Position numbers and translations under genes: made by a program. Below the pieces are notes generated by a model, which was not told where the DNA came from, made no database searches, and saw only the letters and a program-made list of their open reading frames with translations. A stretch of DNA of 64,000 nt from Nautilus pompilius (lineage: Eukaryota > Mollusca > Cephalopoda > Nautilida > Nautilidae), in assembly GCA_018389105.1 (NCBI GenBank), contig JACATO010002189.1:645001-709000 (forward strand), read 5' to 3'. Of this stretch, positions 13,066 to 55,700 are shown in pieces. The first letter of the stretch is position 1. Every line of letters starts with the position of its first letter.

Positions 13066-13840
13066 ATGTCGCTTTCCAACCGAAACGGTGGCCAGAATGC
13101 TCCAGAGGCGGACAAGTGCAACGTATTCGAAATAGGAGAGAACCCGCTGTTCAATACATCGAGTAGCGACTCCCTGAATGCCACAGTTTTAGGTACAAGA
13201 AGGTCCGCCATCTTGCCAGGCGTCAAATGTTGCGAGTGCTGCTACCCGGATCCGGCAACCGAGCGTGGAAAACGGTACTTTACGGTCAACCTGCTGTTAA
13301 TCACCGTCATTCCGATACTGATCCTCTTGGGCTTTAACGGCTGGCTGCTGTACATTTCGCTGAAAAAGGTGGACCAGGCCGTGAAACTGAAAAGGGAAGT
13401 CATGCTAGGCCTGCCCGTGTTACACTTCCGGCACTCGATGCAGCTCGAACGAGGCGAGGTGGTGCTACACGTGAGCAACTTCAGCAGGAGATACAGCAAG
13501 CTCCAAATGAGGTACAGGGAAACCGACAAGGCACTGGCCAAGGTAAAGCAGCTGATCGAGAACGACGAGACGATGGAGTACTTCAAAATGCTCAACTACG
13601 AATACATCATGCGGTCCCTGCGAGACATCCGGTCCAAGACACGTCGCCAAGAACTGACAATGGCAGAAGTGACCAAAATGTACACAGCTATCACGAATGA
13701 AACCAATGAAATCCTCAAAATAAGAAATAAGGAAATAGAAACAGATTTATGGAAGGAGCTCGAGTCAGAGAAAAAGGTCTCCTACAGTAACGATCACGCT
13801 GCATTAGAAAAGGAATCAGGAATTAAATTCTATATTAAAG
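13066..13840 (+). CDS. NIT-cyclase exon 1: cytoplasmic tail, TM1, first part of NIT region
   Basis: This exon encodes residues 1-258 plus one base of codon 259. It includes the CCECC cluster before TM1 and the [18 protein letters not shown] segment typical of NIT helices. The donor is gtaagt. This exon is GC- and CpG-rich, unlike all later exons. Confidence 0.92.
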
Positions 13841-16800: not shown

Positions 16801-19800
16801 AAAGGAAGAAAAAAGGAAAGGTTCCTTGCAAAACAGTTTCATTAAAAGAATTAAATGGTGAATTCCCATTTATGTCCTAAATCAATATCAAATAATCAAT
16901 ATAGAATAAGATGAATTTTTAACTTTCCTATCCTCTGAATAACATGTTAAGAGTTGTGGTGTGGAGAAAAGCTCATTCCTATCATGTAACACATTGATAA
17001 ACAAGAAAAAGAGGATCACATCCCTTGCCCCCCTGTGATGCAGGGTAAATGTAATTTATCATCTTTTTCTTCTCTCTACTGCAGGTGGGTTTTCTTTGAA
17101 AGAATTTCTGTATCACAATAGTCAGAAAGTAATAAGTGAAGATCATCTGAGGTTGAGCCAGTTGGATCTTCCCCTGGTTAGTGACTACCTGGACAAGAAG
17201 TTCACAAACACATCCACAGCAAGATCGCTTGAAAGGATGCGCGCAGAGATTTCGGTGAACCAGTCTACAGACTCAGCTAGACAGTGGCTGAACACCATGG
17301 CAGTTTATATGCAGGTATTGAACAAACTGCAATTGTTCTTGAAGAACATAACGATTCAAAAAGTCAAGGAGATTGAAAATATATCTAGGATACCTGCCAT
17401 TTTCAACATTTTCATTATAATTGTGGTCTTGATGCTACTTCCACTACAGGTAAAATGTACTTTTTTTGGTTCCTGTAATAATTTTATCACACTACTATTA
17501 TTTTTTTACAACAGTTTACTCCACAAATACAGCATTGCCCTGTTTGCCTTGAGGTTTGAGGCATAATACTCAACAAATGTTTGGTTTCTGCTTTCTTGAG
17601 GATGCTATAGATCCTTTTGTAATTTTTTTATTTTATTGCTGGTGACACCTAACTAGCAAACTAGAAGGGGTACACTGATTAGCTTTGGTAATCAAGTGAC
17701 AAGCTGGATGGACTTTTGGGCAGTAATCAAGGTATGAGCCAATCAATAGTTACCCAGAAAACTCAACTAGAACTCTTCCATTTCAGAGGTTGGAGGAAAC
17801 CGGAATGCCCAGAAACTATACCAGAGTGGTGCACGAAACCGAAATAGTCCCAAATGAGATTCAAATGAGGATCCTCAACCACAGCAGACCAGTAGTCTAC
17901 CACTGAACCACTGGCCACCAAATAACATATTTTAAAATTTGCAAAATATTGTTAACAATATGTTAATACTTTCAAGGTTATGAACCCTGTTAGATCAATG
18001 CACATATTAGCACTCCTTCCTCTATAATATCAGTCTATGCTTTCCTTTTTTTCTTAGCGCTATACTCAGTATTCACTCATGAGTTAATAACATTTTTCTC
18101 TCTTCCTTAACACGTGCAGCATCTTTAAAAAAAATTCAGATTCACATTGAATTTATCATAACAGAATCCAATCTCAATAAAATCTCTGACACAAAGTAAT
18201 CAATAAATACAGAAACCTCTTGACATTTTATAGGGAGAGTTTAAAAGAAATCAATAATCTAGAATATCTGATTTGTGTGTAGAACATCAAGATAAATTCA
18301 AAGGTAGGCCTCTAGTTTTGAAGTCAAGGCATCTTGAGTAGGAAACAGCTGCTAGTGTGGCAAAGTTTGGTCACAAAATGTAGTACTGGAATATCTACCT
18401 CTGCTACTCTGTCACAGGCAGCAAATACATTCAAGTCAAACTACCCCATCAGCTCAATGTTCACCAGTCCACTGAACTGTAATTACTCTCAGGTTTCATA
18501 CAAATTAAAATTAGGCAAATCTTTTTGAAGATAATGGACTTAAGTTTACCTTTTGCCAGCTTAGTCAAAAATTGCTTTTTAAAATAATGGAGCTAAACCT
18601 AAACACACATACACATGCTGAAAAGTAGATAAAATCAAGCTTCTCCTGAATCTGAGTTGGATGCTATCAAGTGGACAGATAAGTCTGTCTTCCAACGACA
18701 TAATGGAGACAGTGTTTCTGGTTGTGCTTGGACCAAAATGAAGTGACAGAACTGAAATATGTTTAGAAAAGAAGTACAATGAATCAAAAGGAAAGAAGAA
18801 ACATGCTAAGAGTTACTGAATGCAGTCCCATGTTTCATATTAGCTTAGAAAAACTATGACACTAAAGGAGGAAAAATCTGTAGATGTGAATTCACTGAGC
18901 AGGGAAACCAACAAAGTAAATATATAGTTCCCTGAGTTTATATTTTGATAGGAAAAAATTTGTTTTAGATAGGTACTGCAAAATTGTAAAAAAAGATGAT
19001 ATTAAAAACTACATTCTATGATTTTTTTAAAATATTTCACATCGATTTTTAGTCCTTTATCAATATAGAGCTTAAATTATTACATGAATATAATCCATAG
19101 GTGTCAAGAAAATTATGACGTAAGTGAATAGGGCTGAGAGCTAGAACATTAGAATTATTCTGACAGTGAATGATTACAGAAAAACAGATTTTAGCTTAAT
19201 TATTTAATCAAAGATTCATTTCCTGTAAAAGGATATGCATTAATAAAAAGTTCGTCTCACAGTAGTAATCACATGCAAAAAGCCTTCTTTTGTTTTTATG
19301 CATAGATGAAAAGATTAACCCTACGGCAATAGTGGAAAACCAGCCTAAAAGGTAGAACATCATTTAATAATACATATATATATTACTATTAATTTTACCA
19401 GCTGCAGTTGAAACCAGACAATATAATTTTGCTTTGCCTTCTAACTTAGTTACCCATTAAGTGCAAACAATGTTTTTGTTTTTGTTTTTACTTTATTATA
19501 AATGGTGAATTAGGCTACTCAGTCTAGTGGTAGACTGCTTGATCCTTAGGTTACCTGGAGAGCCTGCATTTGATTTTCAACAGTTCCATATTATTTGTTG
19601 ACTTTTTTCTTTCTTTTAAAATTTCTAGGAGTAACTTTTCAGTTATTGGTACAACAACTGAAAGATTATTTTGTACATTTATTCTTTTTATTTTACTCCC
19701 TAAGATTATTCTTCTCTCACCCTTTCCACCAACCTCATCACTATAATAGTATCCAGCCCCTGGGTTTCATTTGAACAACCCTAGTAAACAGACATTTGTA

Positions 19801-22800: not shown

Positions 22801-25800
22801 GAAGAGTTATTATTTCCTGAATACACATTAAATAGAAAAGGAAAACCTTGAAGGTAACCCAGACGTGTTTTATGATTTCAGGCCTCCCTTGTACAGCAAC
22901 TGGGATGATTATACAAATATGTTTGAAATTATTCACTTGATTCAAGAAGTGACAAATTTGTGACACCGCATGATAAAGGTTATGAATAATGGATGAATAG
23001 AGGAGCAAGTTGAAAATAAACTTACTAGAGATGGACATTCAAATGTAACCCAGCTGAAGTGCATGTTTCATCTGAATGTCCTTAGAGTGAGTGTGTGTGC
23101 GCGGTCTGTTTGTATTATTATTTAAATCAACCGAACTTCAATTATTAGCAGTGTGTAGATAATACAGTATTGTTATTTAAACATAACCTTGCTAAATTTC
23201 CAGTCTTGTGTCTAACTGCTCATCTTAAACAGAGTAACATGTCACTAGGGAACCTGTAGTTACTACCAACAGTTCACTCATACCTAATGGAACTAATGTC
23301 AAACCACATACGTAAAGTGGCATCCTTCTTAGCTGTCCAGAAACCATCATACCCACCAGCATATGCTGTGAAAAAAGCACCAACACTTTCCCTTGCTGGC
23401 TGAAAATGTAGGAAAAGTACTGCTTTTAAAAGAATAAACACAAACTGTTCATTTACTTTAGTAAACTGTAGTTCCAGGGTTTCTTTTGTAGTCTCTTACT
23501 ATTCATCCTTGAGTTATACACACACTAGAAAAACTACTATAAAGCAAGCAAATAAATGCTAGCCTTGCTTCCAATTTTCATATTATTCATTCATTTCCTT
23601 ACTGTTCAACACAGACAAAGTGAGACTAAGGCCAACTATGTGGTTCAGGGGCTGGAAGTTAGTATAGGATCTTTAAAAGGTAGATATACAGTTTAAACAT
23701 TAAAAGTTTTTTGTTAATACAAATATTAACCTTTTTAGCAGGTGTCACTTTTTCCATTAATATCTACATAGTTGATTTTTAATAAATTATGTATATTTTT
23801 AGGCATACCGGGTATATTGGCTCACCAATTCACTACAGTTATACTCCACTTGTCTACAAATGCAAGCGCAAAAACTTGAAAAGGAAAGACATCGCAGTGA
23901 GAAAATCCTTCTTGAGTTTCTCCCAGGATCCATAGCTCAGGCACTGATTCAGAAGGAAACAGTGTATCCAGAACAGTTTGAAAGTGTCACCATTTTATTT
24001 TCTGACGTAGTTGATTTTACTGCCATCTCATCCAACAGCACACCCATGGAGGTGATCACCATGATAAATATGATATTCTGTGAGTTTGATGATACTGTGA
24101 AGTGCTATGATGTTTATAGGATGGCGATAATAGGTGAGAAATGCACAATAAAAGCAAAAACTAAACGCACAAAACAATAACTACATTTATCACTTTCACA
24201 AGCAGTTATATGCGATCATTCTTTCTGTAAACAAACATGTTTACTGTTAAAAATGCGCCACTTTTGTTTTATACTATGCTATATTTCTATAGTACTGATA
24301 CACATTTACAAAATGTGAAATGTTTAGCTCCAGCTAACATGGAGTATACATTAACAAGATTAACAAGTCTTCTGAGTTAGCTCCCTTCAATGTTCGATAG
24401 CATGCAAGGTGATTCTACTATGTAAACTCTCCACACAATTAGTTGAGTTAGAAAATAAAATGTCAAAAGTCAGTTTGGCACACCTACTCTTTCTGAAAAT
24501 GTTGATATAATTTATGCATATAATAAAAAGCAGAGGACCAACAACAATTTTCTCTAAGTATGCATGTTTCTGTAGCCATAAAAGTAATTTGCCATCTGTA
24601 CCCAGAGCTTCACAGATATAGCAAGATCTGTATGAAACTTTTTCCCCTCTATTTTATCCAAGTTCTGCTAACAGTGAATTTTCCTTTACAATGTAGCATA
24701 GATCAAATCGCCATAATTTCTGGCAGACAGAAAATTGTTTCAGATTCTATACATTCCCAACCTCTACCAGAGTTCTATATTGACCCCCTCCCTAATTAAC
24801 TATTTGGACAAATCTATGATTTTATTCACACAAAATGTAGTGGGGAAATACTAGAATTCCCACCAAATGTTTGAATCAGTTCATCCACATGTATTTTGTC
24901 AGGTGTTGCATCACTCAGTGGCTACCTGCCTGAACTTTGCTGATCAAAATGATAATGGGATTCTGGCTCAGGGCAGACATTATGCATACAAAGTATCAAC
25001 AAATACTATGTGCAATCAAAAGTACTTTCTCAGTGCAAAACAATGTGGTTATTTTAATCCACTGCAAGAATTCTCTCCAGCGACAGTTGCTCCTCTCCAG
25101 AGGATTCCCAACTACATGCTGATGATCAAGCAATTATTCAATACAAAGATGTGAACTACCCTGACTTCTACTTTCTGGAATTGGCATTAAATAGAATATC
25201 AACCTTTACAAAAATGCTAAACAATGTGTTAGATCATAGTCTCCAGACAGGCAGTGTAAAAAGGAAAAGGTACAACAATGCATCTGGTCTTTTCAGCTGA
25301 TACAGCAATAGGATTTCCACATCTCGATTTTCTCTTCAATCTCATATTTTCACGATAGGAATGTAAAGATCATCATTTAACAATTCAATAAATGATGGAG
25401 GACTCTCTGGTGCATAATGCAGTTGTAAATAAATGCTTTAGAGCTCACACCCTCTTTTACATGGAACTCTAGCACACTTTTTTGTTTCATCATGCCATTC
25501 AGACTACTCCCTTTACAATTGCTACTGCGCTGCCACCTGTGAAGTGTAACAGTGATGCTGCTGTGTTAATAAGTAGACGTGACATTCATAATTTATGCAG
25601 ATAAAACCACAGGTTTTCCTGATCAGCAGTTTTCCTGTAATAAATCAGGGCTCATTAATTTCAGTATACCATAATTTCTTTAAAAAAATTTTTTTGGTTA
25701 ATTAAGAAAACATTTCGTTTGTTCTTCTTAAATAATACTGACATCTTTGTTATGTTGTGCAGGAGATGCCTACATGGTTATTTCTGGCCTACCAGTGAGG

Positions 25801-28800
25801 AATGGCATCAGGCATGCCACAGAGATTGCTAATTTTGCTTTGCACCTCATAGACTCCATCCCACAGCTGAAAATACCACACATGCCATTGGAAAATCTTA
25901 AACTCAGAGTTGGCATAAACACAGGTAACAGATGAAACATTGTTACAAAGCTGAGAAATTAGTTTATTCCATGATTTAAAAAAAAAAATAACAATCAATT
26001 TTCTGAGTTTTCTAATCTGGCAACAAAGAGAAAAAGATGCACACATGATAGGTTTAATTCATTAAAGCTTTCATCAGTTGTTCGTCTACACTGAGAGAAG
26101 AAGTAATATTTACATACACATATACTTTATAAAAATCTAAATAAATGCTTTAAATGTTGTTTAAGAAGAAAACTGTTTTAAAGTCTCCCATATAGGCAAA
26201 AACAGTAGGAAAGCAATGAGATTTAGCTATCAAGAATTTCTTTGGAAAATTTCAGAGAGAGAGAGATCATCACTTAGTTAAAGAACCTCTGAAGTTCAAT
26301 CTCAACATATGTAGCCACTATTCAGGATTCATTTTTTTCATTGCCAATATTACTTATTCTAAATATTAAAATATCCTTGTATCAATACTTCAAAGACAGT
26401 ACAACATCCTGCACAAATAAATGACATAGCACAAAGAGATCACTATACAGCACTGTCTACACAAAGTCATTTGTAGCCTTCTAAATAGGAACGTTGCAGC
26501 ATTGACCAGACCAAGTTAGTTCTGAAAACCTAAATTTACTAACATTTTCCTGAAACTCATGATATAGGCAAGTTACTTCATGGTAAAAGTATTTGTTTCA
26601 ATGGTCTGTTTAATAAGGTAGAGTATAAAGTTAAGCTAGCACAACTTTGAAAAGAGAACAAGTCTGAAGATGTCATCACTGTATCCCCAGTGCAAGAACA
26701 TACAAGCTTTCTTATTTTGATTTGATTAGAAGTTAATTTTGGAATTAAAGCTAATGACATAGTTTTTTAGCATCTTATAATTTAATGATACTAATCTCAA
26801 TATTGATAACAAGAATAAGAATAGGAACAATACATTATAACCCTTTTCTGAAGACAAATTTTGCTTTTCCTTCCTTCCTGTCATGTTGTTACACATCCAT
26901 AAGGGAGGAGGGAACCCCACAAAACTAAAGGACAGAATCCAGATTTAAATGAGCTTAAAAATACTATGGATGTCAAATGAAACCTGGCTGGAAATATAAA
27001 TACGAAATATAAACTGAATCTAATGTTTTAATTCTTAATTTACAGGACCTGTAGTTGGTGGAATTGTTGGAGATATGATGCCATTTTATACTGTTTTTGG
27101 AGACACTGTAAATATCGCATCAAGAATGGAATCAACTGGTTTGCGTAAGTATAGAATTTCACATGCATTATACGATTTGACATATTGCATAATGCTAAAG
27201 TTCACAGATTAGCATGTGCATCACTACTGTTCCTTTTGTCATTCAGTCTCAATGTGGTCACTACCAATCCAAAATGTCCAAGTCTCTATGATAATTATTA
27301 ATGAATATTGCTTTACTTGTACAGCATATTTTCAAGCTCCTATGACAGGAGAACAAAAAATAATGATGGTATCTTTATTTCATGTGAAAAAGAAACCAAC
27401 AACAAGAATCCAACCAAAAATGCAACAAATTTAAGATCATCGATAAATCATTAAACGTCTTGGCACACAACTGAAGAATGGCAGTCACGAAAAATATGAG
27501 TTATCTCACCAAAAGTATGATAAAAAACATCCATTTCAACAATCTGAAATTCTCCAGAGATATTAGTTTTAATGAGAGACTAAAATCTTAGAGCCCATGA
27601 TCTAAAATCATCTGCATATCCATCAGCAAATTAGCTCTTTATATTCTCCTTCAGACACCCAAATGCATAACTAACAATTTTTTAGTTTGTTTGTCTTCCT
27701 TTTTATTATTGCAGTTATGCATTTAGAACTTAAACTAGGGGTTGTTGAAATGAAACCCAAGAGCTGGGTATCTTTACAGTAATGCTATTTAAGCCAGGTT
27801 TCCTTTGAACAACCCTAGTGCATTGCATGGATAAATGAGAGCAGCATTTTCTCTTTAATTATAAAACATATTATAATGAATATGTTGAATATTTACTGTG
27901 TTTTATGAATGAAGTGCCCTAAACATGAAACTCAATGGCAAGGGAATCTACAGATATTGTAAAATCTATTAAGGATAACAGCCATTGTTGGTCAAACCAG
28001 TCGAGTATAGTTATAGTAATAGAGTCTAATTATTTAGGGTGGCACAAAAAAAAAGAAAATGCATGCATTGATAGTGAGAGTTGATTGTTGGCAATGTCAA
28101 CAGAGCAAGGTATCTTCAGAAGTTTTAAATTGAAGCTGTACTTGCTACAGGTACAAGGAAAATGTTTGGCAACAGAGGAATGTCTATTCCAACAGGACAG
28201 TGCACCATCTCAAGTTATCAAGTACATGCTTATTTGGAAGCGTCTACACTTGGAGAAAAGGTGTTAACCGCCACCACCATGCACACTCACCAAACAGATT
28301 AGTTTTTTAAGTGTTTGCTGATGACTTTAAAAGATAAGGTGAACTCCACAAGACCAAGAAAAATTGATAAACTAAAGCAGGCAATAATGGATATGGATAA
28401 AGGCATTAATGTAGATACGGGAGCTAAAATTTGGCACTCAATTCTTTAATCTGCAATCAAGTGATTCAGTACCATTGATGAATATATTAAATACATGTGG
28501 CTTACTGAAGACAAGCAATAGAAAAGCTCATTTTACTATGCTACATTCTATTGACAAACAAAACTTAAACTGTTTCTCTGCAAGTATTACACTGGTCAAC
28601 AAGTATTTTTCATCAAGCATATGTCAAGATGTACTTAGTGTAGTTTTTAATGCTGATTTCAAATATACAATTACTTTTTTGACATCACATACAGTTTTCA
28701 AGATGAGAAAGTTTTTTGGTTTTAGCTCATGCATTATATAGAAATTCCAATTAATGTGTATGCATGTATCTCATTTATATCATGGAAACATACCTTTAAA

Positions 28801-31800
28801 ATAAACTACATTATTCATTGCTGCATAGTTCAGATGCAATATTTCACCATCTTAAATTAACCAATCAAGTTTTGTCTGATGAAATAGGTATTTCAACATC
28901 TCAAATTGTCCAGTCATAATTGGTCTGATGAAATATTTCATCATCTCAAATTCAATATAAGTATAACTGTTTGTATCTATTTCCTTACTTGTTTTACAGT
29001 GTTAACAATGTCAAGACAGTGTAGAAATCCTCCTGATGTGTTTTGTTATGTCTGTGGACAATTTATTGTGAAAGCTCAAAAACGTACAATAACACCAGAG
29101 ATCAAGAAGATTTATAAGCTATACTTTGACTGTCCTCTTGGAGATCAGGACAAGTTATGGGCACCACATTTTATCTGCTCAGCTTGCTCAAATGGTTTAC
29201 ATGACTGGTTCAATAAGAGGAAGAAGTCCATGCCTTTTGCCATTAACCCTAACCCTAATCCTGCAGAGTGGTGTTTGTTTATTGACTCTCCAAAACGAAG
29301 TTTAAAAGCTGTACTTCTCCATAATATTAATTTGAAGCCCTCCATTCCTATTGCACACTCCGTTCATCTTCATGAATCATATGAGAATATGGAACTTTTA
29401 CTTCATGCCACTGCCTATGAAAGATTCTCATGGAAAATATGTGGAGATTTAAAAGTCATTGGAATGTTAATGGGAATGCAGTCAGGTTTCACAAAATACT
29501 GTTGTTTCTTGTGTCTATGGGATAGTCGGGCAACTGACAGACATTATTCGGAATCAAACTGGCATACAAGAACATCATACCAGCCAGGACTGTCTATCGT
29601 CAAGAATACACCTCTTGTAGATCCATGTAATGTCCTATTGCCTCCTTTGCACATAAAGCTTGGACTAATGAAAGTTTGTAAAGACACTAGGGTAGAGAAA
29701 TGCCAGAGAGTTTGAGCATATTGTAGAAAAGTTTCCCAAAATCACACAGGCGAAGTTGAAAAAGGGTATCTTTGTCGGACCCCAAATTAGAGAAGTACTC
29801 AAAGATGTCAACTTCAAGACAACACTGGATGAACTGGAACTGCCTGCCTGGAATGCTTTCAAATTGGATCTGTGAGAATTTCTTGGGCAACAAGAAGGCA
29901 ATGGACTACAAGGATGGCATCAAGAATCTTCTGAAATGTTACTCAGCAATGGGTTGTCGCATGTCACTGAAAGTTCACTTCTTGGACTCCCATCTGGATT
30001 TCTTCGCAAATAACCTTGGAGCAGTGTCTGATGAACATGGTGAAAGATTTCACCAGGACATTAGAGCTATGGAGAAACATACCAAGGCTTCTGGAATGAC
30101 AGTATGCTGGCTGACTACTGCTGGACACTTTACCGTGATCAACCAGATCAGGAACACCGCAGGAAATCCAAATCACAATATTTCTAACTCTGTTGTTCTA
30201 ACTTTGTCTGACCCATTTTTTGTGTATTCACTCTTTGTAGAATGATAATGATGATTTTTAACTCAATAAACTCATTTACTTTCTAAAAATAATGTCCTTA
30301 TTTATTACGTTAATGATTTCATATATACAAATATGTAAATATTTGCATGTATCTACTGAAAAACTGATAGGTGCTGCATACAAATGGAGTGAAATTTTGG
30401 AATCAGCATGAAAAATTTGTCTAAAAAAGTTGGTTTGCATTCATAATGAGTATAATACATTTAATTTTGTTGACCAGTGTTATCAGTGCATACATTTTTC
30501 TATATCACTATATTAAAGATATAAATGGTTTTCAAAGAAAAAAACAACAATTCATCTTATCTGATGGATAACCATTTTTCAGTGATCTGACAAAACAAAA
30601 CCTTGTCATGTAAACAGTGTGGCAGCATCTCCAAGAGTCTGTTTACTTTAGTTTGATAAATTTACACTACAGTCCACAGCTAAAGTTCCAGCAACATCAG
30701 AGTCTGTTATTTTTCCAGCCAGCAAATTGTACGATCTTTGAAATGCTTTGTTGAAGCTGGATGCTTAGAGTGTTTTAAATTGAGGGGTAATTCAGACATT
30801 TCCCTTTACCTTATTAGCAGTAACCAAACTAACTAATGAATGCATATTTCAGCAATCTTACTCTGATATATGAATACTTATAATGGCAACAGGAAGAGAT
30901 TCCCTACTTCTGACCTTAGCTCCTCCTCCTCCTCCAATGAGCTGAAGCTTAACATTTTGAGTTTTCTAGAAGAAAATAGACATATACTAGCGCATATTCC
31001 CAATAATCATGGTAGACAAATAAACAAACATTTTAAACATGTAATTCATACAAGATATACTGTGATTTACAGGACAGCAACAAAGCCAATGTGCCAACCG
31101 GAGATACAGCAGCAGTACCCGCATTAGATAACCTCCATTAGGGTATGTCCATTGTAGCATTGCTGAGAAATATGGCATTGGTCTTACTACCGTTAAAGAT
31201 TGGAGAAAAAGCAGAGGCTAAAATAAGAGCTTGTTGCTACTGTTAAGTCTAAAAAGATGTTTTTTGTTAGAATGTCTGAAAATGTTGGCTTTGAAAAAAC
31301 TCTTCATGAATGAATACATCACAAAACAGAACATTTTAATCTTGATTAATATTATTTGTGAGGAGGATAAAAAAACATTTAGGCCCAGATCTATTCAGAG
31401 GAAAACAAAAGAAAGCCAATTCCATATGTAAAGTCTGGTTTGGTAGATTCTGCAATTGCCATGGAATGGATCTTAGCAAAGTTCTAGGTTAAACATCCAG
31501 TGCTAATACAGATGCAGCTGAAAGGCTTAAACCTTTAAAAGACTACCTGTCTCAATATCAGCCTGAACAAATATTTAAGGCTGATGAAACACATTTATTC
31601 TGGGAAAAGCTACCATCACAGACCTATTGTATGCAGGAAGAGGTTTCTACTGGTTTTAAAGGTATTTAAGGACAATAACTGTTCTCTTATGTTCCAATGC
31701 TGATGGAGATTTGCATTTGTCCCTTGCTTGTGTCTATGGAGTAAAGCCGCTAGACCTCTAGTATGGTGGAGGGCTAATAAAAAGGCCTGGGTTATTGTTC

Positions 31801-34800
31801 AAATCTTTGACAACTGGTTTAAATCTGTGTTTATTTGTAAAGTAAATTGTTATTTAAATCAAAGGTGTTCCAAGACAGATATTACTTCTCCTTGACAATG
31901 TTCTGGCTATTCTGCAGAAGTCCTGTTGATTTCAAGATGTCATTTCTTCCTACCTCCAGCCTTTAGATCAATGTGCAATTGCCATTTTCAAGCATCTTTA
32001 CTTCTTCTGCCTTTTTTTTTTTTTTTTTTTTTGGAAGAGCTACCATTACTGGAGGAAAATATCCGAGAAAATAGCTTCAACAAGACATGGAAGAAATTTA
32101 ACATTTTGGAATGCCTTAAATTAATGATCCAGGCATGAAATGGCTTACCACATTCTGCTCTGCAAGGTATTTGGAAGTCTTTATGCACGTCTGTAATACC
32201 AGACTTTGGAGATTTTGAATGAATTAAATTCTGTATTTTTATTATACAGTAATTTTAAGTACCATAAGTTTAACTTAAGTTCAGTTATTGTAAGAGAGGG
32301 TACCTTAAGTGAAATGAAAACAGAAATTGTGATTAAACATTTTATTTTAATTATAATTTATTACTTTATATATTCTGACCTCCCTGTACTTCTGAAGAAT
32401 CATGCTGCCTCAATAAGTTGGAAGTCTGAGGACTAATTGAAGTAGGGCTGTTCAAATAAAACTCGGCCCCAGATACCATTATGGCAATGCTATTTCTGCC
32501 AGGTTTCATTTGGAAGTTGTGCACATGCATGTGTGTGTATATATACACATACACATGCACACAAAGACACACAAGCAAGAGGCAGAGGTAAATGTCCTGC
32601 AGCTATGACTTATAAGTACTAATCTAATTCCCCAAATTTGAAGGAACCATGCTAAATCTTTTATTAAAAAAAAGTTTTTTTCTTTTTTTCCCCCACAGCT
32701 GGAAGAATTCAGATATCTCAGTCTACACACAATCTCTTACAAGATTATGACTACATCTTTGAAAAGAGAGGGTTTATTTACATCAAGGTATTGATGCTTG
32801 CTATAGATTTCTTAACCCTCTGAGGAGTATATTTAAGGAGAGTGGGTACTAAGCCTGAGGGAATAATCTCCCTTGTAAATAAATGTTTCTGAGGTTTACA
32901 TGGGCCGTGAAAACGAAGGTTGTACCTGGTTGAAAAGGTGAGGAAACATCTCGGTTAAAGCAATTTCTGTAATTCCCCCTCCAAGACTACTTCTTCTGCA
33001 CATAAATACCCATTTAAAAAAAAACACCACTCCTCAAAGGGTTAATCGAAGCACTATGAAAGTTTTATATTGTTTCATATATCTAACAAGTGACAAAGTA
33101 ATAACAAATGCACAAGGAGCTAGTGAAATACAAATTTTTTAAGATTACTGGAGTTTGCAAAACGTTTGTTCATATAAACTGAACTGTTCCTTTGCATAAA
33201 TTCTAGCGAGTGCTACCTGTGTTCCCTGCCTGTTAATTTGTTTGTTCGTTTTAAATTTTGCATAGTGTTTTATTCATATTGATTCCAAACTAAAAAAAAG
33301 ATAATTAAAAATTTTAAATGAGAAAATGAGCAAAATCAAGAATCTCCATTAAAAAATATTTCTATATAAAGTATCAACAAGCATCCAATAGCAAATGTTC
33401 AAAAAGTATTTTATATTTAAATGAATCAAGATTTCTGAACTGAAATTTCCATGAAAATACTGATGTTAATACATACATTGGTAAAATTTTCCTTTTATCC
33501 AGCAGTAATGTATCTGCTGTCTGTCTTTAGATGGATTTCATCAGATTTAAAGAATAATAATTTAAGAGGGAGAGAAAGACAAAATCAATCAATCAGTGAG
33601 AGAGAGAGAGAGAGAATAGACAGATGGAGGAAGGAGAAGGAAGAGTCAGTCAGTCAGAGAGAGAGAGAGAGAGAGAGAGACATAGATGGAGAAAGTGGAA
33701 GAATAGTCAGGCAGAAAGAGACATAGATGGAGAAAGAGGGGAAATAGACAGTCAGTCAGAGAGAGAGAGAGACATAGATGGAGAAAGTGGAAGAATAGAC
33801 AGTCAGGCAGAGAGAGACATAGATGGAGAAAGAGGGAAATAGACAGTCAGTCAGAGAGAGAGAGAGAGACATAGATGGAGAAAGTGGAAGAATAGACAGT
33901 CAGGCAGAGAGAGACATAGATGGAGAAAGAGGGAAATAGACAGTCAGTCAGAGAGAGAGAGAGACATAGATGGAGAAAGTGGAAGAATAGACAGTCAGGC
34001 AGAGAGAGACATAGATGGAGAAGAGGGGAAATAGACAGTCAGTCAGAGAGAGAGAGAGACATAGATGGAGAAAGTGGAAGAATAGACAGTCAGGCAGAGA
34101 GAGACATAGATGGAGAAAGAGGGGAAATAGACAGTCAGTCAGAGAGAGAGAGAGACATAGATGGAGAAAGTGGAAGAATAGACAGTCAGGCAGAGAGAGA
34201 CATAGATGGAGAAAGAGGGGAAATAGACAGTCAGTCAGAGAGAGAGAGAGACATAGATGGAGAAAGTGGAAGAATAGACAGTCAGGCAGAGAGAGACATA
34301 GATGGAGAAAGAGGGGAAATAGACAGTCAGTCAGAGAGAGAGAGAGACATAGATGGAGAAAGTGGAAGAAGACAGCAGGCAGAGAGAGAGAGACATAGAT
34401 GGAGAAAGAGGGGAAATAGACAGTCAGTCAGAGAGAGAGAGAGACATAGATGGAAAAGTGGAAGAATAGACAGTCAGGCAGAGAGGAGACATAGATGGAG
34501 AAAGAGGGGAAATAGACAGTCAGTCAGAGAGAGAGAGAGACATAGATGGAGAAAGTGGAAGAATAGACAGTCAGGCAGAGAGAGACATAGATGGAGAAAG
34601 AGGGGAAATAGACAGTCAGTCAGAGAGAGAGAGAGAATCGATGGAGGAAAGTGGAAGAAGAGAGACAGTCAGGCAGAGAGAGACATAGATGGAGAAAGAG
34701 GGAAATAGACAGTCAGTCAGAGGAGAGAGAGACATAGATGGAGAAAGTGGAAGAAGACAGTCAGGCAGAGAGAGACATAGATGAGAGAAAGAGGGAAATA

Positions 34801-37719
34801 GACAGTCAGTCAGAGAGAGAGAGAGAGACATAGATGGAGAAAGTGGAAGAATAGACAGTCAGGCAGAGAGAGGACATAGATGGAGAAAGAGGGAAATAGA
34901 CAGTCAGTCAGAGAGAGAGAGAGACATAGATGGAGAAAGTGGAAGAATAGACAGTCAGGCAGAGAGAGACATAGATGGAGAAAGAGGGGAAATAGACAGT
35001 CAGTCAGAGAGAGAGAGAGACATAGATGGGAAAGAGGGGAAATAAGACAGTCAGTCAGAGAGAGAGAGAGACATAGATGGAGAAAGTGGAAGAATAGACA
35101 GTCAGGCAGAGAGAGACATAGATGGAGAAGAGGGGGGAAATAGACAGTCAGTCAGAGAGAGAGAGAGAGACATCGATGGAGAAAGTGGAAGAAGAGACAG
35201 TCAGGCAGAGAGAGACATAGATGGAGAAAGAGGGGAAATAGACAGTCAGTCAGAGAGAGAGAGAGACATAGATTGAGAAAGTGGAAGAATAGACAGTCAG
35301 GCAGAGAGAGACATAGATGGAGAAAGAGGGGAAATAGACAGTCAGTCAGAGAGAGAGAGAGACATCGATGGAGAAAGTGGAAGAAGAGACAGTCAGGCAG
35401 AGAGAGACATAGATGGAGAAAGAGGGGAAATAGACAGTCAGTCAGAGAGAGAGAGAGACATAGATTGAGAAAGTGGAAGAATAGACAGTCAGGCAGAGAG
35501 AGACATAGATGGAGAAAGAGGGGAAATAGACAGTCAGTCAGAGAGAGAGAGAGACATAGATGGAGAAAGTGGAAGAATAGACAGTCAGGCAGAGAGAGAC
35601 TATAGATGGAGAAAGAGGGGAAATAGACAGTCAGTCAGAGAGAGAGAGAGACAGATAGGGGAGAGAAAGAGGGGAAATAGACAGTCAGTCAGAGAGAGAG
35701 AGAGAGACATAGATGGAGAAAGAGGGGAAATAGACAGTCAGTCAGAGAGAGAGAGAGAGAGACATAGATGGAGAAAGAGGGGAAATAGACAGTCAGGCAG
35801 AGAGAGAGAGAGACATAGATGGAGAAAGTGGAAGAATAGACAGTCAGGCAGAGAGAGACTATAGATGGAGAAAGAGGGGAAAAGACAGTCAGTCAGAGAG
35901 AGAGAGACATAGATGGAGAAAGAGGGGAAATAGACAGTCAGTCAGAGAGAGAGAGAGAGACATAGATGGAGAAAGAGGGGAAATAGACAGTCAGTCAGAG
36001 AGAGAGAGAGAGACATAGATGGAGAAAGAGGGGAAATAGACAGTCAGGCAGAGAGAGAGAGAGACATAGATGGAGAAAGAGGGGAAATAGACAGTCAGGC
36101 AGAGAGAGACATAGATTGAGAAAGTGGAAGAATAGACAGTCAGTCAGAGAGAGAGAGAGAATGCATAACCCCATGGCTGCCTAAAACTGCCCATGCACTC
36201 ACTGCATGATTAAAGACACTTTCTCCTTGTTAGTTATGAAACAGAAAACTACACAAACTCGTCAGGATTTATTGATAATCCCAAAAAGCATGCACACATT
36301 TTTTGTTGTTGGTGACACAGGGCCAAAAAGGATAAATGACATAGGAATTTCTCTGTAGCGACTTAATCCTTTCACAAGCACCTTTTGGTATCTAAAATAA
36401 ATAAATATATATAGTGGTCACTTTTTTTTTTTTAAGTCTGCAGATTGTTGATAAACCTTTTCTTAGCTATCATTAACCAAAACACGAGGCCAACAAGAGA
36501 TTAGAGCTCACAGCCTAGCACTACCATCTTCTAAGTAACATGATAACACCTGCACATTGCCTGACCATTGTTTTAATTATTTTTTTTTAAAAAATAAAGT
36601 GCCTCTGATATTCTGGGGGTCCAAAAACAGTGACAGAACTTTACTGTCCTTGTGTTTAAGCAAGTCCCTAAAGTGGTTGTCAGGGGCCAGTTTTGCCAGA
36701 ATGCCGTGTATTAAGGTAATCATGGCTATATTATTCTTAGTTTTAATTTTCTAGACTAGTAAAAAGCAATGCTTTATAGAAATCCCCCACCTACTCCAAG
36801 TAAGCTCAGCACTTGTCATCTTCCAGCACAGAGATTGATAGAGTTGGGAATCTTGCTTTAGTACAATCAGCCGTCTACACCACATGCTAAATACCAGTAA
36901 AAACAGCTACCATTGTTGCTGGTAACCACAAATAACCTGTTCTGTACAGTAACTTGTCAAGGGCTCATTCTCTTCATCAGTCACTTAGGAAAGAATGTGC
37001 TAATACTTTTGGTCCTGACAAGCATGTAATGGTGGCACACAGGGTAGCCAAATTTGTTCTTTGGCAATATTTTGTATCACTACATTCATTGTCTATGTGT
37101 GTGTGTGTGTGGGGTACTTGTGCATCAAGCCAGCAATACTTGTTATAATAGAGAGAAAAATTACTGCAAGTTCATCAGGATTTATTTTTCTGTGTGGATT
37201 AAACTGAAGTAGGCTGACTGTTCTAGATTAGCAGGCAGGGTTGTTGGTGATTGTACTATATGTACTCTGAACCAGGATTGGCAGCAGGGTTGGGATTCTT
37301 AGGCAAAGTAAAATGCAAGAAAATACTGACAGTTTCTTGAGCTTAAGTTTTAACAGTAATAATGTTACTTAGAAAAGTTACTTAAAGAAAATGCAGCTGT
37401 TCACTCCAATTAAGAAGTTATGTTTGTGCAAAACATAAAAATGGCGGCCAAAACTCTCTGCTTCCATCAGTAAAATTTAAAGTGGCAAATATTTTTTTTT
37501 AATTTGTTACACTTTCACTCATCACACCATCTGTAATTGTAACAAGTGATGTTGGCTTCACACACATCCACCCACATGTACTTTATTATTCCTTTTTTCT
37601 TTTTTCAGGGTAAAGGAGAAATGGAAACATATTGGTTGCTAGGCAAATACACTGAGAATAAAAGCAGGTGCTGTATAGAATCATACAGCAAAAGTTCCAT
37701 AAATACGCAAGACTCATAA
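13066..37719 (+). CDS. NIT-domain receptor-type guanylyl (class III nucleotidyl) cyclase, complete seven-exon gene
   Basis: Exons 13066-13840, 17085-17449, 23803-24133, 25763-25924, 27046-27144, 32699-32787 and 37609-37719 join in phase into 643 codons plus TAA. The order is: an N-terminal cytoplasmic tail with CCECC; TM1 at about 71-99; a NIT-like all-helical extracellular region with the MQLERG motif, about 100-358; TM2 about 359-381; a signalling helix about 390-420; and the cyclase domain about 440-620. NIT domains sense nitrate, nitrite or nitric oxide, and cyclases of this kind make cGMP at the membrane. Metal Asp448 (LFSDVVDFT) and Asp492 (IIGDAYM), and transition-state Asn567 and Arg571 (DTVNIASRM), are present. 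The guanine-selecting Glu and Cys are Ala488 and Thr560, so nucleotide preference is uncertain. No kinase-homology domain is present. The ATG at 13066 is the first in-frame one. Confidence 0.9.
15193..15435 (-). mobile_element. Tc1-type transposase fragment
   Basis: One minus-strand frame reads [20 protein letters not shown] followed by DLN, the degraded HxxPWPxQSPDLNP motif of Tc1 DD34E transposases around the second catalytic Asp. No inverted repeats were found. It lies inside cyclase intron 1. Confidence 0.6.
15590..16340 (-). mobile_element. Tc1-type transposase relic
   Basis: Across several minus-strand frames I see [13 protein letters not shown] (the XISxxTVRNxLxxxGL segment), then [12 protein letters not shown], then [18 protein letters not shown], in the order found in Tc1 transposases. 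Stops and frameshifts are frequent. It is a different copy from 15193-15435, because the motifs overlap. Confidence 0.6.
17085..17449 (+). CDS. NIT-cyclase exon 2: rest of NIT region and TM2
   Basis: The acceptor is tctctctactgcag and the donor gtaaaa. It encodes residues 259-380: helices such as [20 protein letters not shown], then the second membrane helix ([16 protein letters not shown]). It enters two bases into a codon and leaves in phase 0. Confidence 0.9.
17650..17919 (-). mobile_element. tRNA-derived SINE-like element
   Basis: Read on the minus strand, the right end gives ggtggccagtggttcagtgg and then tagactactgg, a tRNA-like A-box region. It is followed by gaggatcctcatttgaatc in the B-box position and a body with the ccggtttcctcc motif shared with the copies at 11979 and 53525. 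Confidence 0.65.
19512..19630 (+). mobile_element. tRNA-derived SINE-like fragment
   Basis: The sequence ggctactcagtctagtggta with gactgcttgatccttagg and gcatttgattttc resembles the A-box to B-box span of the other SINE-like copies in this window. It is followed by a T-rich stretch. The tail and target duplication are not clear. Confidence 0.5.
21810..21860 (+). repeat. (GT)n microsatellite with adjacent (TA)n
   Basis: GT dinucleotides are interrupted by acgcatgcgtgcat and followed by a short TA run, all visible directly. Confidence 0.9.
22287..22636. mobile_element. 350-bp non-autonomous element with about 85-bp terminal inverted repeats
   Basis: The left arm (acaggttagttcacc, later ttgttagtgaaactaacta, and ccgttgccatcatcaggg) is matched in inverse by the right arm (cctgatgatgacaacagag, later tactaacaagtggtgag and aactggcc). 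The arms are diverged but collinear. The left arm also contains tttagcccg, answered by cgggctaaa at 22407-22415. There is no coding content. The superfamily is not determined. Confidence 0.55.
23803..24133 (+). CDS. NIT-cyclase exon 3: signalling helix and start of cyclase domain
   Basis: The acceptor is tatttttag and the donor gtgaga. It encodes residues 381-490, including the [19 protein letters not shown] linker helix common to membrane guanylyl cyclases, Asp448 in LFSDVVDFT, and YRMAII, where the family normally has YKVETI. Confidence 0.93.
24134..25762 (+). other. NIT-cyclase intron 3
   Basis: An open stretch at 24867-25154 on the plus strand has no recognisable domain. I see no element ends. 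Confidence 0.5.
25763..25924 (+). CDS. NIT-cyclase exon 4: [11 protein letters not shown] segment
   Basis: The acceptor is ttgtgcag and the donor gtaaca. It encodes [19 protein letters not shown] through LRVGINTG, the highly conserved centre of the cyclase domain, and carries Asp492. Confidence 0.95.
25925..27045 (+). other. NIT-cyclase intron 4
   Basis: This is 1.1 kb of AT-rich sequence. A caaatgaaacctggctgg segment at about 26975 resembles part of the small MITE family at 27735. Nothing else is seen. Confidence 0.5.
27046..27144 (+). CDS. NIT-cyclase exon 5: [14 protein letters not shown] segment
   Basis: The acceptor is taatttacag and the donor gtaagt. It encodes [20 protein letters not shown] and then [12 protein letters not shown]. 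Asn567 and Arg571 are present; Thr560 stands where guanylyl cyclases usually have Cys. Confidence 0.95.
27735..27818. mobile_element. 84-bp palindromic MITE
   Basis: The ends ctaggggttgttgaaatg and aacaaccctag are inverted copies, each followed inward by the gaaacc/ggtttc box. TA dinucleotides bracket both ends, as expected for Tc1/mariner-type insertion. Related sequence occurs at 19762-19792 and, internally similar (ataccattatggcaatgcta), at 32445-32515. Confidence 0.6.
28130..28490 (+). mobile_element. Tc1/mariner-type transposase fragment
   Basis: Plus-strand frames read [18 protein letters not shown], matching the second catalytic Asp motif, and further on [20 protein letters not shown], matching the C-terminal helix region. 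No ends were found. Confidence 0.45.
28831..28957 (+). repeat. Three subterminal tandem repeats in the CACTG element
   Basis: Units start at 28833, 28878 and 28927 (spacings 45 and 49 bp). Each runs from gatg(c/a)aata to catct(t/c)aaatt. The third contains the perfect palindrome gatgaaatatttcatc at 28927-28942. They may be transposase-binding sites. Confidence 0.6.
29008..30245 (+). pseudogene. Broken copy of an uncharacterised zinc-finger-like transposon protein
   Basis: It begins [19 protein letters not shown] at 29008, just after a ttttacag acceptor-like site. It keeps family landmarks: [92 protein letters not shown] and [17 protein letters not shown]. From memory, such proteins occur in many invertebrate genomes in multiple copies annotated only as uncharacterised. 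At about 29242 a large central part of the usual protein is missing. Reading-frame changes occur near 29680 and 29880, so no intact product is possible. Paired cysteines suggest zinc binding; catalytic function is unknown. Confidence 0.75.
29244..29259 (+). repeat. Interstitial telomere-like repeat (CCCTAA)2 at a deletion junction
   Basis: The sequence taaccctaaccctaat lies exactly where the encoded protein jumps from its N-terminal part to a much later part. It is in frame, reading NPNPNP. Confidence 0.8.
31110..32215 (+). mobile_element. Tigger/pogo (jerky)-like transposase relic
   Basis: Plus-strand frames carry, in the family's order: [18 protein letters not shown] (helix-turn-helix), [20 protein letters not shown] (first catalytic Asp), [35 protein letters not shown], the decayed leucine-rich LLLDNAxxH and LPPNTTSLIQPxDQ region, and finally [10 protein letters not shown]. 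Stops and frameshifts are numerous, and a T-run lies at 32010-32033. Terminal repeats were not located. Confidence 0.7.
32699..32787 (+). CDS. NIT-cyclase exon 6
   Basis: The acceptor follows a long pyrimidine tract (tttttttcccccacag); the donor is gtattg. It encodes [20 protein letters not shown] and then [10 protein letters not shown], matching the usual ISQSTxxLL and RGxIxIKGKG region of guanylyl cyclases. Confidence 0.93.
32788..37608 (+). other. NIT-cyclase intron 6
   Basis: More than half of this intron is the 96-bp minisatellite. The remaining parts (32788-33565 and 36161-37608) are AT-rich with no gene or element that I can support. Confidence 0.7.
33566..36160 (+). repeat. 2.6 kb minisatellite with 96-bp dimeric unit
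   Basis: The regular unit is 96 bp, for example from 34132 to 34227. It consists of a 51-bp half (cagtcagtcagagagaga ending gtggaagaataga) and a 45-bp half (cagtcaggcagagagaga ending aggggaaataga). Both share acatagatggagaaag. About 25 units fit, with indels and a run of 45-bp-type units with longer GA tracts after 35640. Because 96 is divisible by 3, long Arg/Glu-rich reading frames appear; they are not genes. Confidence 0.95.
37609..37719 (+). CDS. NIT-cyclase exon 7: C-terminus and stop
   Basis: The acceptor is ttttttcag. It encodes [20 protein letters not shown] followed by a short tail and TAA at 37717-37719. GKGxMxTYWL is the standard end of a cyclase domain. Confidence 0.93.
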   Translation, partial: GKGEMETYWLLGKYTENKSRCCIESYSKSSINTQDS

Positions 37720-52700: not shown

Positions 52701-55700
52701 TACTTTATCTTTTCATTTCTTTACTGAACAAAATTTCATTCTTTTATCTGAATCAACAGTTTTTTTTTAAAAATTATTTTACATGTTAAAGAACAATCTC
52801 TGTGCAGTCAATATAAACAGTTGACTAATAAAAAGGAAAATATTTTCAAATTGGTTTTAGTAGTATACAAGCTGTATATTGCTAGTATTAAAATTATATT
52901 AACTATTTAATTTCTCTGTCTTTTTATTTTTCATAACGGTACGACAGCATGATAATAAGAATAAGCTTATTACGTGGAAATCAATATGGAGAAGTACATT
53001 TAATTTTGACCTATATGCAAGTGAACTTCCAAATCTTGTCACCAATGGGGCACCTGACTTATAAGCTGGAAAACGGAGTACGGCAATTAATGTGAGAGAC
53101 ACTAACCGCCTAGATGTTTGTGTTTCTGCAACCAAAATTTAATTATGGCCACCAGATCAGGCCAAACTTTGTTCCTTCTTACTCTTGCTCACCTTTCCTT
53201 TGCATACATCCAACAGCTTCTGCGTATTGGATATGGTGAATCTTCTAGCACTGCTGTCTTCTATTAAAGGGCTGTATAGAATCTCAAACACCACACCTCT
53301 TTCTAAAGCCTAGAAATAAAAAAAAAATGTGGGTGAGTTGGAGATAAAATAACAAAAATAAAGGATTATTAAAATAAATAAAACAACACAGTGGAGTAAA
53401 CAATTTTTTTTTTTAAATTTTAAAATGTCACTTAGTCATTAACAGCTTTTTTTTTTTAATATCATCATTATCAAAGATTTATATCAATGACAAGAATCTC
53501 TTCTACTTTGCAGTTAAACTAAACAGGTTCGCTGACTCAGTGGTGACTGCCAGGGCTGAGGTATGAGCTTGACACCCGATCTGGCGTACCTCTGTGGTTC
53601 CTTCTGGATGCTCCGTTTCCTCTCATGTCTAAAAATGAATAGTTCTGAAAGGGATTTCCTTGCTAAAGTTGCAAGTGCCAGCCCCATTGAGGCATAGGAC
53701 AAGCAACGCTCTCTATTGAGCAATATGGCATCACGCTCCTTCATCGAAGCTGTCTCCATCCAACGTAAAGAGGTTAGTTATCCATGTTGTTGAAACTGGT
53801 GTAGGACACAACAAGTTCGTCTGGTTACAAATTGAGGGCTGCTTATACTTACCAAGTTCAGAGAGGTTTTCTTTATTTTGAACAAAAGCTTTTCTGTGAA
53901 GTCCAAAGAAATGATGTCGATATCTAAGGTCCCACATGCAACCTATTTAAAAGAAAAATTTTTTAAACTTTTTTCTATTATCAAATTTTAAAAAAAAATT
54001 ATAATGGTGTTAATGTTAGGACAATGGACATGCTGTGATAATTGTAGTTTCCTTTTTATTTTTTAAAATTTATCTGTATAAATAAAAACAATACAAGAAA
54101 ACAACAAATGATTCAGACTTTCTAAATTAAAAACAATTGCCTGATCGTGAATATACACAAGAATTCTAGAAAGATTCCAGTAAATAGAATTACAGAGCAT
54201 GAAAATTAAAATAAAGAAAAGCAAAGAAACTAACAAAGGAAATGACTGTATTATGATTTTTTAAAAAATAAAAAATACGAGGTCTGTCGAAAAAGTATCT
54301 GACTATTTTTTCCCGTGGGAAGTAATGGTGTTAGGGAGGCAAAAGTGTGCATAGTGGAGCCGTATAGCTTCTTGCGCATGTGTGGTTTTTGGCAGGCTTG
54401 CTGGATGGGTCAGTCGCTATCAGGCAGCCAGCGCATGAGGTGCTGTACTACTTACTCGTCACATTTTCATTATTTTGCCCGTGATGACGGAATGTGTGGA
54501 GCAACGATCTTGCATCAAGTTTTGCCAAAAGCTTGGAGATACCCAAGCGGAAAAAATTCGCAAAATTCAACAGGCTTTTGGTGACAATGCCATGGGTGTT
54601 ACCAAAATTAAAGAATGGTACAACAGGTTCAAAGATGGCTGCACATCGGTGGAGGGAGGCCATCAACAAGATGCAATGCAGTTGTTATTGAGAAAATGAG
54701 AACCTTGATAATGGAGGATCATTGTTTGACGGTGTGTGAAATTGGTGATGAGGTTGGGATCAGTAAAGATTCTGCACATGCAATTTTAGAGGATTTTGGC
54801 TTGTGCAGAATGGCGGCAGAATTTGTGCCCAAGCTGCTTTCTCTGGAACAACAACAACTTTGTCTTGAGGTTTCGCAGGGCCTGCTGGATACTGCCGCCA
54901 ACAGGGATCCTGAGTTCCAGAATACCGTGATAAGAGATGAGATGTGGGTACAGGTACGACCTGGAAACCAAAGCTCAGTCGTCACAGTGGAAGCACCCAA
55001 CATTGCCAAGGTCCGGAGCAAAATCAAGGTGATGCTGACTGTTTGACTACCGAGACGTTGTGCATCATGAATACGCACCAGAAGGACAAACAGTTACAAA
55101 GGAGTACTATCAGGAAGTCCTCCAATGTCTTCATGATGCAGTTCGGTGCAAGAGAGCGGACCTGTGGGCCTCACAAAACTGGCAGCTGGATCATGACAAC
55201 ACCCCGGTTCAGTTGTTGTAGCTGATCCAAGCTCTCTTGGCAAAGAAAGGCATTTCGCTCATTCACCAGGCTCCCTACTCTCCAGACATGGCTCCTTCTG
55301 TTTGTTCCAAAAAATGAAGATGCCCCTGAAAGGCTCCTGCTTTGAGAGCTGAGAGGACATCATGTGGAATGCGATGGTGGAACTGAGAGCCATTCCTAAA
55401 GAAGCATTCCAGACATGCTTCGAACAGTGGAAGGATCACTGGACTAAGTGTGTGGAGGCACAAGGGGCTTACCTCGAAGGGGATTAGCAATTGAACCCCA
55501 CCAAGTACGTAATTTTTTTTTCCCAGCCTAAGGTCGGATACTTTTTCGACAGACCTCATACTATTTTTTTTTTCTACCGAGTATGTTAGCTTGGTTAACA
55601 TAAATAAAATAAGAGAATCCAAAAGATCAGTGTAAATAAAGAGATAACAAATACTTCTCTTAATCATTTTGTCAGAACAGAGTTTACACCTTATCATCAT

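Follow-up and report, generated by a model that had tools for sequence, protein, structure and literature searches.

The 64,000-nucleotide stretch of Nautilus pompilius DNA analysed here (the window; positions 645001-709000 of contig C2087, within a 727.6 Mb assembly of 2558 contigs that was searched for relatives) carries a gene for a membrane receptor with a NIT domain and a class III nucleotide cyclase domain. We call this gene and its product W. It is an animal NIT cyclase, a kind of protein that is already known, with an unusual combination of active-site residues. W has lost residues by which guanylyl cyclases choose guanosine triphosphate (GTP) and keeps the other residues of the catalytic centre. 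The reading that we tentatively favour is that W could be a working cyclase subunit whose base choice is weakened or changed. In the usual teaching, a Glu/Cys or a Lys/Asp pair sets which base a class III cyclase accepts. An animal receptor from nature that has neither of these pairs, in an otherwise intact site, puts the completeness of this rule directly to the test.

Active-site residues of W

The analysis follows an observation made from the letters of this DNA, namely that a NIT-domain cyclase at window positions 23803-27144 lacks both guanine-selecting residues. We rebuilt the gene model independently of the one behind this original prediction, and the residue numbers it had given (D448, A488, D492, T560, N567 and R571) were reproduced exactly. 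Alignments of W with natriuretic peptide receptor 1 (ANPR1) and guanylyl cyclase C (GC-C) run without gaps through both motifs. In both of them A488 is aligned with the Glu and T560 with the Cys, confirming the predicted changes of KVE to RMA and of YC to YT. The KVETIGD of ANPR1 is RMAIIGD in W, and the MPRYCLFGDTVNTASR stretch is also altered. The codons of the site read as follows, in window coordinates:

24004-24006, + strand: Asp448, metal ligand, codon GAC
24118-24126, + strand: Arg486-Met487-Ala488 instead of Lys-Val-Glu, with Ala488 encoded by GCG at 24124-24126
25765-25767, + strand: Asp492, metal ligand, codon GAT
27084-27092, + strand: Phe558-Tyr559-Thr560 instead of Arg-Tyr-Cys (PRYC), with Thr560 encoded by ACT at 27090-27092
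27111-27113, + strand: Asn567, codon AAT
27123-27125, + strand: Arg571, codon AGA

The residues expected of a competent class III cyclase, that is the two metal aspartates (448 and 492) and the Asn-xxx-Arg pair (N567 and R571), are all present in W, which also keeps the KGKG motif. A set of 15 membrane guanylyl cyclase domains, 13 from this genome and two from the solved receptors, has 54 invariant columns (with at least nine rows present), and W is changed in 11 of these; most of the changes are mild, and they also include Glu to Ala, Arg to Phe and His to Asn.

Guanylyl cyclase alignments described in PMC4215837 have Glu at the first base-selecting site and C, S, T, H, A or G at the second, and a GTP-bound structure reported in PMC7384201 suggests that GTP is specified mainly through the Glu contact, with a minor share for the second residue. 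W lacks the Glu of this guanylyl signature, and its second-site residue, Thr560, lies within the known range. The adenylyl cyclase signature is likewise absent from W, which has no Lys at 488; Thr560 alone suits the Asp-or-Thr site named in PMC7384201. Because the second site varies among guanylyl cyclases and the Glu does not, Thr560 is a mild change and the true anomaly lies in Ala488. The original prediction is real and was correctly read, and it is somewhat overstated: the Glu is indeed lost, but the Cys site is a variable one (PMC4215837) and a membrane cyclase with Glu and Thr occurs in the same genome.

An exon encoding a Glu alternative to Ala488 was not found in the window by tblastn with W, with the two other NIT cyclases of the genome (A and B, below) and with a canonical domain as queries (E up to 10). 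This search returned the seven exons of W and scattered weak matches judged to be chance, and a scan of both strands of the window for a K/R-x-E motif gave nothing. Restoration of Glu488 by RNA editing is ruled out, as neither adenosine-to-inosine nor cytidine-to-uridine editing can make a Glu codon from GCG.

Base-selecting residues in paralogues and relatives

Our survey of the genome gave 79 matches to the cyclase family PF00211, a lower bound, with exons linked by nearness. The residue table compiled from it has 23 rows and leaves out adenylyl cyclase domains, two odd domains on C1346 and C1362 and the alpha gene of soluble guanylyl cyclase (sGC) on C330. Glu at KVE is present in all 13 of the other membrane-type cyclases assembled from the genome and Cys at the second site in 12 of them; the first metal Asp was unread in six of the 13, where its exon was not joined. 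The thirteenth has Thr at the second site (C592:1158621; locus at C592 1156678-1158734) and reads MPRYTLFGDTVNTAARM. Glu is lost in four of the 23 rows (W, B and one gene each on C100 and C108), among which Asn is kept in W alone, the others having Phe, Tyr or His there. The genes at C100 222068-224228 and C108 497582-499860 stand beside the sGC beta row in the tree, with Glu changed to Gln and Asn to Tyr or His, and are possible non-catalytic half-sites. The odd domains at C1346 216398-216892 and C1362 219432-223455 comprise a degenerate one, within an open frame of 903 residues, and one from a cyclase that reads VPRFVVMGEAAVIASK.

We also examined 82 prokaryotic or viral-contig relatives (the best 80 of 353 from genome contigs and 2 of 2 from viral contigs). 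All 82 carry the Lys/Asp pair and none has Ala at the Glu site, even though one of the two peptide patterns used for genome contigs, and one used for viral contigs, accepted E, A or T at this site and so favoured such residues. One relative has Glu at both metal columns. Phe at the PRYC-Arg column, as at position 558 of W, is found in 3 of the 82 Lys/Asp relatives and also in the adenylyl cyclase Rv1625c, as F363 (PMC4174876). In the literature searched we found no discussion of the base-selecting residues of NIT cyclases.

Three NIT cyclase genes were found in the genome, and a search based on W added none to them. A (C1784:135559-141435, + strand, 616 residues) has Glu, Ser, Asn and Arg. B (C1784:167802 to about 160,300, - strand, 602 residues) has Thr and Cys, with Asn changed to Phe, Arg to Glu and ILG for GKG, and retains the metal Asp. 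The two are convergent and lie about 19 kb apart. Each of the three misses a different part of the canonical set, and canonical Glu plus Cys is found in none of them versus 12 of the 13 other membrane genes (Fisher p 0.007; p 0.025 for Glu alone), in tests that are post hoc and on genes that are not independent. The signature of a metal donor, with Asn-xxx-Arg lost and Asp kept, is absent from W and fits B, which from these residues looks like a metal-donating, alpha-subunit-like subunit. The complementary losses of A and B would be as expected of a heterodimer.

Judged by these residues, a W/W dimer would have two Ala/Thr/Asn/Arg sites and an A/A dimer two Glu/Ser/Asn/Arg sites, and a B/B dimer would be dead. 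Mixed dimers would have one guanylyl and one dead site (A/B), one guanylyl site using the Asp of W and one odd site (W/A), or one odd and one dead site (W/B). In every pairing that lets W catalyse, the half-site that it brings would thus be Ala/Thr/Asn/Arg. The partner that had been predicted to supply the missing residues could be A, which has Glu, Asn and Arg.

The tree of the cyclase domains (142 columns, with 11 of 20 inner branches open) is uninformative on orthology. It places W inside a 95/88-supported group with GC-C and ANPR1, i.e. among the natriuretic-receptor type. The three NIT cyclases are united in 4% of bootstraps and the free tree leaves them apart; forcing them into one clade is not rejected (p-AU 0.541, with a likelihood 0.48 higher).

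Gene structure and domain architecture

W has seven exons and six introns, all GT-AG, spanning 13066-37719 (24.7 kb) on the + strand. Its reading frame of 643 codons runs uninterrupted to the stop at 37719, and no stop, frameshift or damaged splice site was found. The claims that the gene has no breaks and that the metal aspartates, Asn567 and Arg571 are intact thus stand. The range given for it holds exons 3 to 5, and the gene is larger, with exons 1, 2, 6 and 7 outside that range. The locus is single-copy in the assembly, which offers no second haplotype for comparison.

13066-13840, + strand: exon 1, with start ATG, cytoplasmic N-terminus, first transmembrane helix (TM1) and first part of the NIT domain; phase 1 donor
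13279-13335, + strand: TM1, residues 72-90, from a Kyte-Doolittle scan
13432-13809, + strand: NIT profile match, residues 123-248, profile positions 4-136 of 239
17085-17449, + strand: exon 2, with the last part of the extracellular region and the second transmembrane helix (TM2)
17390-17446, + strand: TM2, residues 361-379, from a Kyte-Doolittle scan
23803-24133, + strand: exon 3, with the linker helix and the first third of the cyclase domain, including D448 and A488; PF00211 E 6e-14
25763-25924, + strand: exon 4, cyclase domain, starting within GDAYM; PF00211 E 3.1e-12
27046-27144, + strand: exon 5, cyclase domain, from Phe558-Tyr-Thr560 through Asn567 to Arg571; PF00211 E 1.2e-10
32699-32787, + strand: exon 6, cyclase domain through YIK; weak PF00211 match, E 0.0096
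37609-37719, + strand: exon 7, C-terminal tail and stop codon

The protein reads from a cytoplasmic N-terminus through TM1, an extracellular NIT domain, TM2 and a helical linker to a single C-terminal class III cyclase domain (PF00211). Animal NIT cyclases are described as having the same layout, with two transmembrane helices around the NIT domain followed by one cyclase domain (PMC7400543). The NIT family PF08376 is matched at E 3.3e-7 (31.4 bits against a cut-off of 24.9) over profile positions 4-136 of 239 alone, and W scores 7.5e-5 in the genome-wide search. Of the two arginines of the domain that are presumed to be of ligand type, W keeps the first (R129 in LERG). The solved relatives nearest to the cyclase domain are ANPR1 (E 2.4e-67, with 98 of 185 aligned residues identical) and GC-C (E 2e-61). 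A PDB search with paralogue A matched no NIT structure, the only hits being to factor VIII and a ligase at E 0.058 or worse, and NasR (4AKK) was accordingly not used.

Intron 6 holds a purine-rich minisatellite with 51- and 96-base units (33603-36160), and intron 5 two long open frames (28888-30242) that have no Pfam match over the cut-off and resemble a broken repeat element. Further downstream, at 54439-54696, the window encodes the helix-turn-helix of a Mos1-type transposase (HTH_48, E 7e-9); beyond it, by eye, there is more of such an element.

Readings of W and comparison with known systems

By its sequence anatomy W is a membrane sensor of the animal NIT-cyclase family, with its NIT domain (of nitrate/nitrite-sensing type) outside between TM1 and TM2 and joined by the linker to a class III cyclase domain that needs dimerisation. 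The chemical part of its site (two metal Asp, Asn-xxx-Arg and KGKG) is kept and the guanine-recognising part is remodelled by the changes of Glu to Ala, Arg to Phe and Cys to Thr. That W, alone of the four rows that have lost Glu, retains the Asn argues for a half-site still doing chemistry, with altered base contacts. In the reading we tentatively favour, W would still cyclise nucleotide, the Glu contact to N1/N2 no longer holding guanine, with a weak or shifted base choice and a turnover that is probably low. It may act as a homodimer with two odd sites, or together with A, giving a near-normal guanylyl site (metal Asp of W with Glu, Ser, Asn and Arg of A) and one odd site. Several points weigh against this proposal. 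W has no Lys/Asp pair and nothing indicates that it uses adenosine triphosphate. Its NIT match is limited to the first half of the profile, the second half being weak, and the column of the second ligand-type Arg is Lys in W and Arg in A and B, in a three-way alignment that is weak there. In the tree, the branch of W exceeds all other membrane-type ones in length (1.17 changes per column, with a median of 0.31), as would also be expected under relaxed constraint. According to PMC12264004, NeoR-cat is still inactive once its Asn and Arg are restored, so that conservation of residues is insufficient. An improbable extension is that NIT receptors here split the active site between paralogues and that W, as a nitric oxide/nitrite-type receptor, makes mainly cyclic adenosine monophosphate or a pyrimidine cyclic nucleotide rather than cyclic guanosine monophosphate (cGMP), the same extracellular cue leading to different messengers by pairing.

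It is possible, with a smaller chance, that W, like sGC alpha or NeoR, serves as the metal donor of an obligate heterodimer, combining its two Asp with Glu, Ser, Asn and Arg from A and giving ordinary cGMP while its own base half-site drifts as a pseudo-site. The intact metal aspartates beside lost base residues speak for such a role, as do the existence of membrane heterodimeric guanylyl cyclases (ODR-1/DAF-11, PMC5225109; NeoR/RGC1, PMC12264004) and the NIT pair A/B being already complementary in its losses. A plain metal-donor role is nevertheless disfavoured because W retains Asn567 and Arg571, well conserved here, whereas NeoR and B lose the pair. The would-be partner A moreover lies on a different contig and has Ser for Cys, and the C541S change lowered sGC activity about 40-fold (PMC3591389).

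We consider it unlikely that W has lost, or is losing, its catalysis and persists as a cyclase-like receptor, whether as relic, scaffold or dominant-negative partner. Radical changes at the otherwise invariant Glu and Arg, the long branch, the weak second half of the NIT domain and the deviation of all three NIT cyclases, as under loose constraint in the lineage, would suit such decay; an unbroken gene, intact metal, transition-state and KGKG residues and the identity to ANPR1 in more than half of the aligned residues argue against it. Very unlikely, too, is an assembly error or rare allele at position 488 in a cyclase that is otherwise atypical and bears Glu. GCG is one base from GAG (Glu) and the locus is single-copy in the assembly, but K to R and V to M beside 488 and Arg to Phe and Cys to Thr on another exon are changed as well. 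Since these neighbours and partner positions changed too, the pocket is remodelled whatever the residue at 488.

The closest known systems are the animal NIT-domain guanylyl cyclases, i.e. those of placozoans (Moroz et al. 2020, PMC7400543) and NIT-GC1 and NIT-GC2 of Platynereis (Jokura et al. 2023, as given in the eLife insight PMC10584369). In layout they share with W the NIT domain between two transmembrane helices and one natriuretic-type PF00211 domain; W itself lacks the guanine-selecting Glu and has Thr for Cys. In the annelid this family carries nitric oxide signals (PMC10584369). Exons of nitric oxide synthase occur on three contigs of the Nautilus genome (C31, C2026 and C2003), including two near-copies on C31 at a distance of about 37 kb; their presence suits a role for NIT sensors but is no proof of one. 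The annelid linker family PF16915 had no match, a negative without weight since its controls had none either. ANPR1 and GC-C have the same metal and transition-state residues as W, from which they differ by Glu, Arg and Cys in the base pocket, by an unrelated sensor and by their kinase-homology domain. Among class III adenylyl cyclases (bacterial class IIIa, Rv1625c), Rv1625c shares with W the Phe at the PRYC-Arg column, and all 82 relatives examined carry Lys/Asp where W has Ala/Thr. The NeoR/RGC rhodopsin guanylyl cyclases of chytrids are, like W, membrane class III enzymes, and their subunits are unequal in catalytic residues: as described in PMC12264004, the subunit without Asn-xxx-Arg supplies Asp to a single working site, at which the other subunit sets the base choice. 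W is the reverse of NeoR, in which Glu/Cys is kept and NxxxR is missing, and the NeoR-like cyclase of the Nautilus genome is B. An animal precedent is found in ODR-1/DAF-11 of C. elegans, an obligate heterodimer of receptor guanylyl cyclases, without a NIT domain, in which each subunit has essential catalytic residues (PMC5225109). With three NIT cyclases that deviate in different ways, heterodimeric NIT receptors become a concrete idea.

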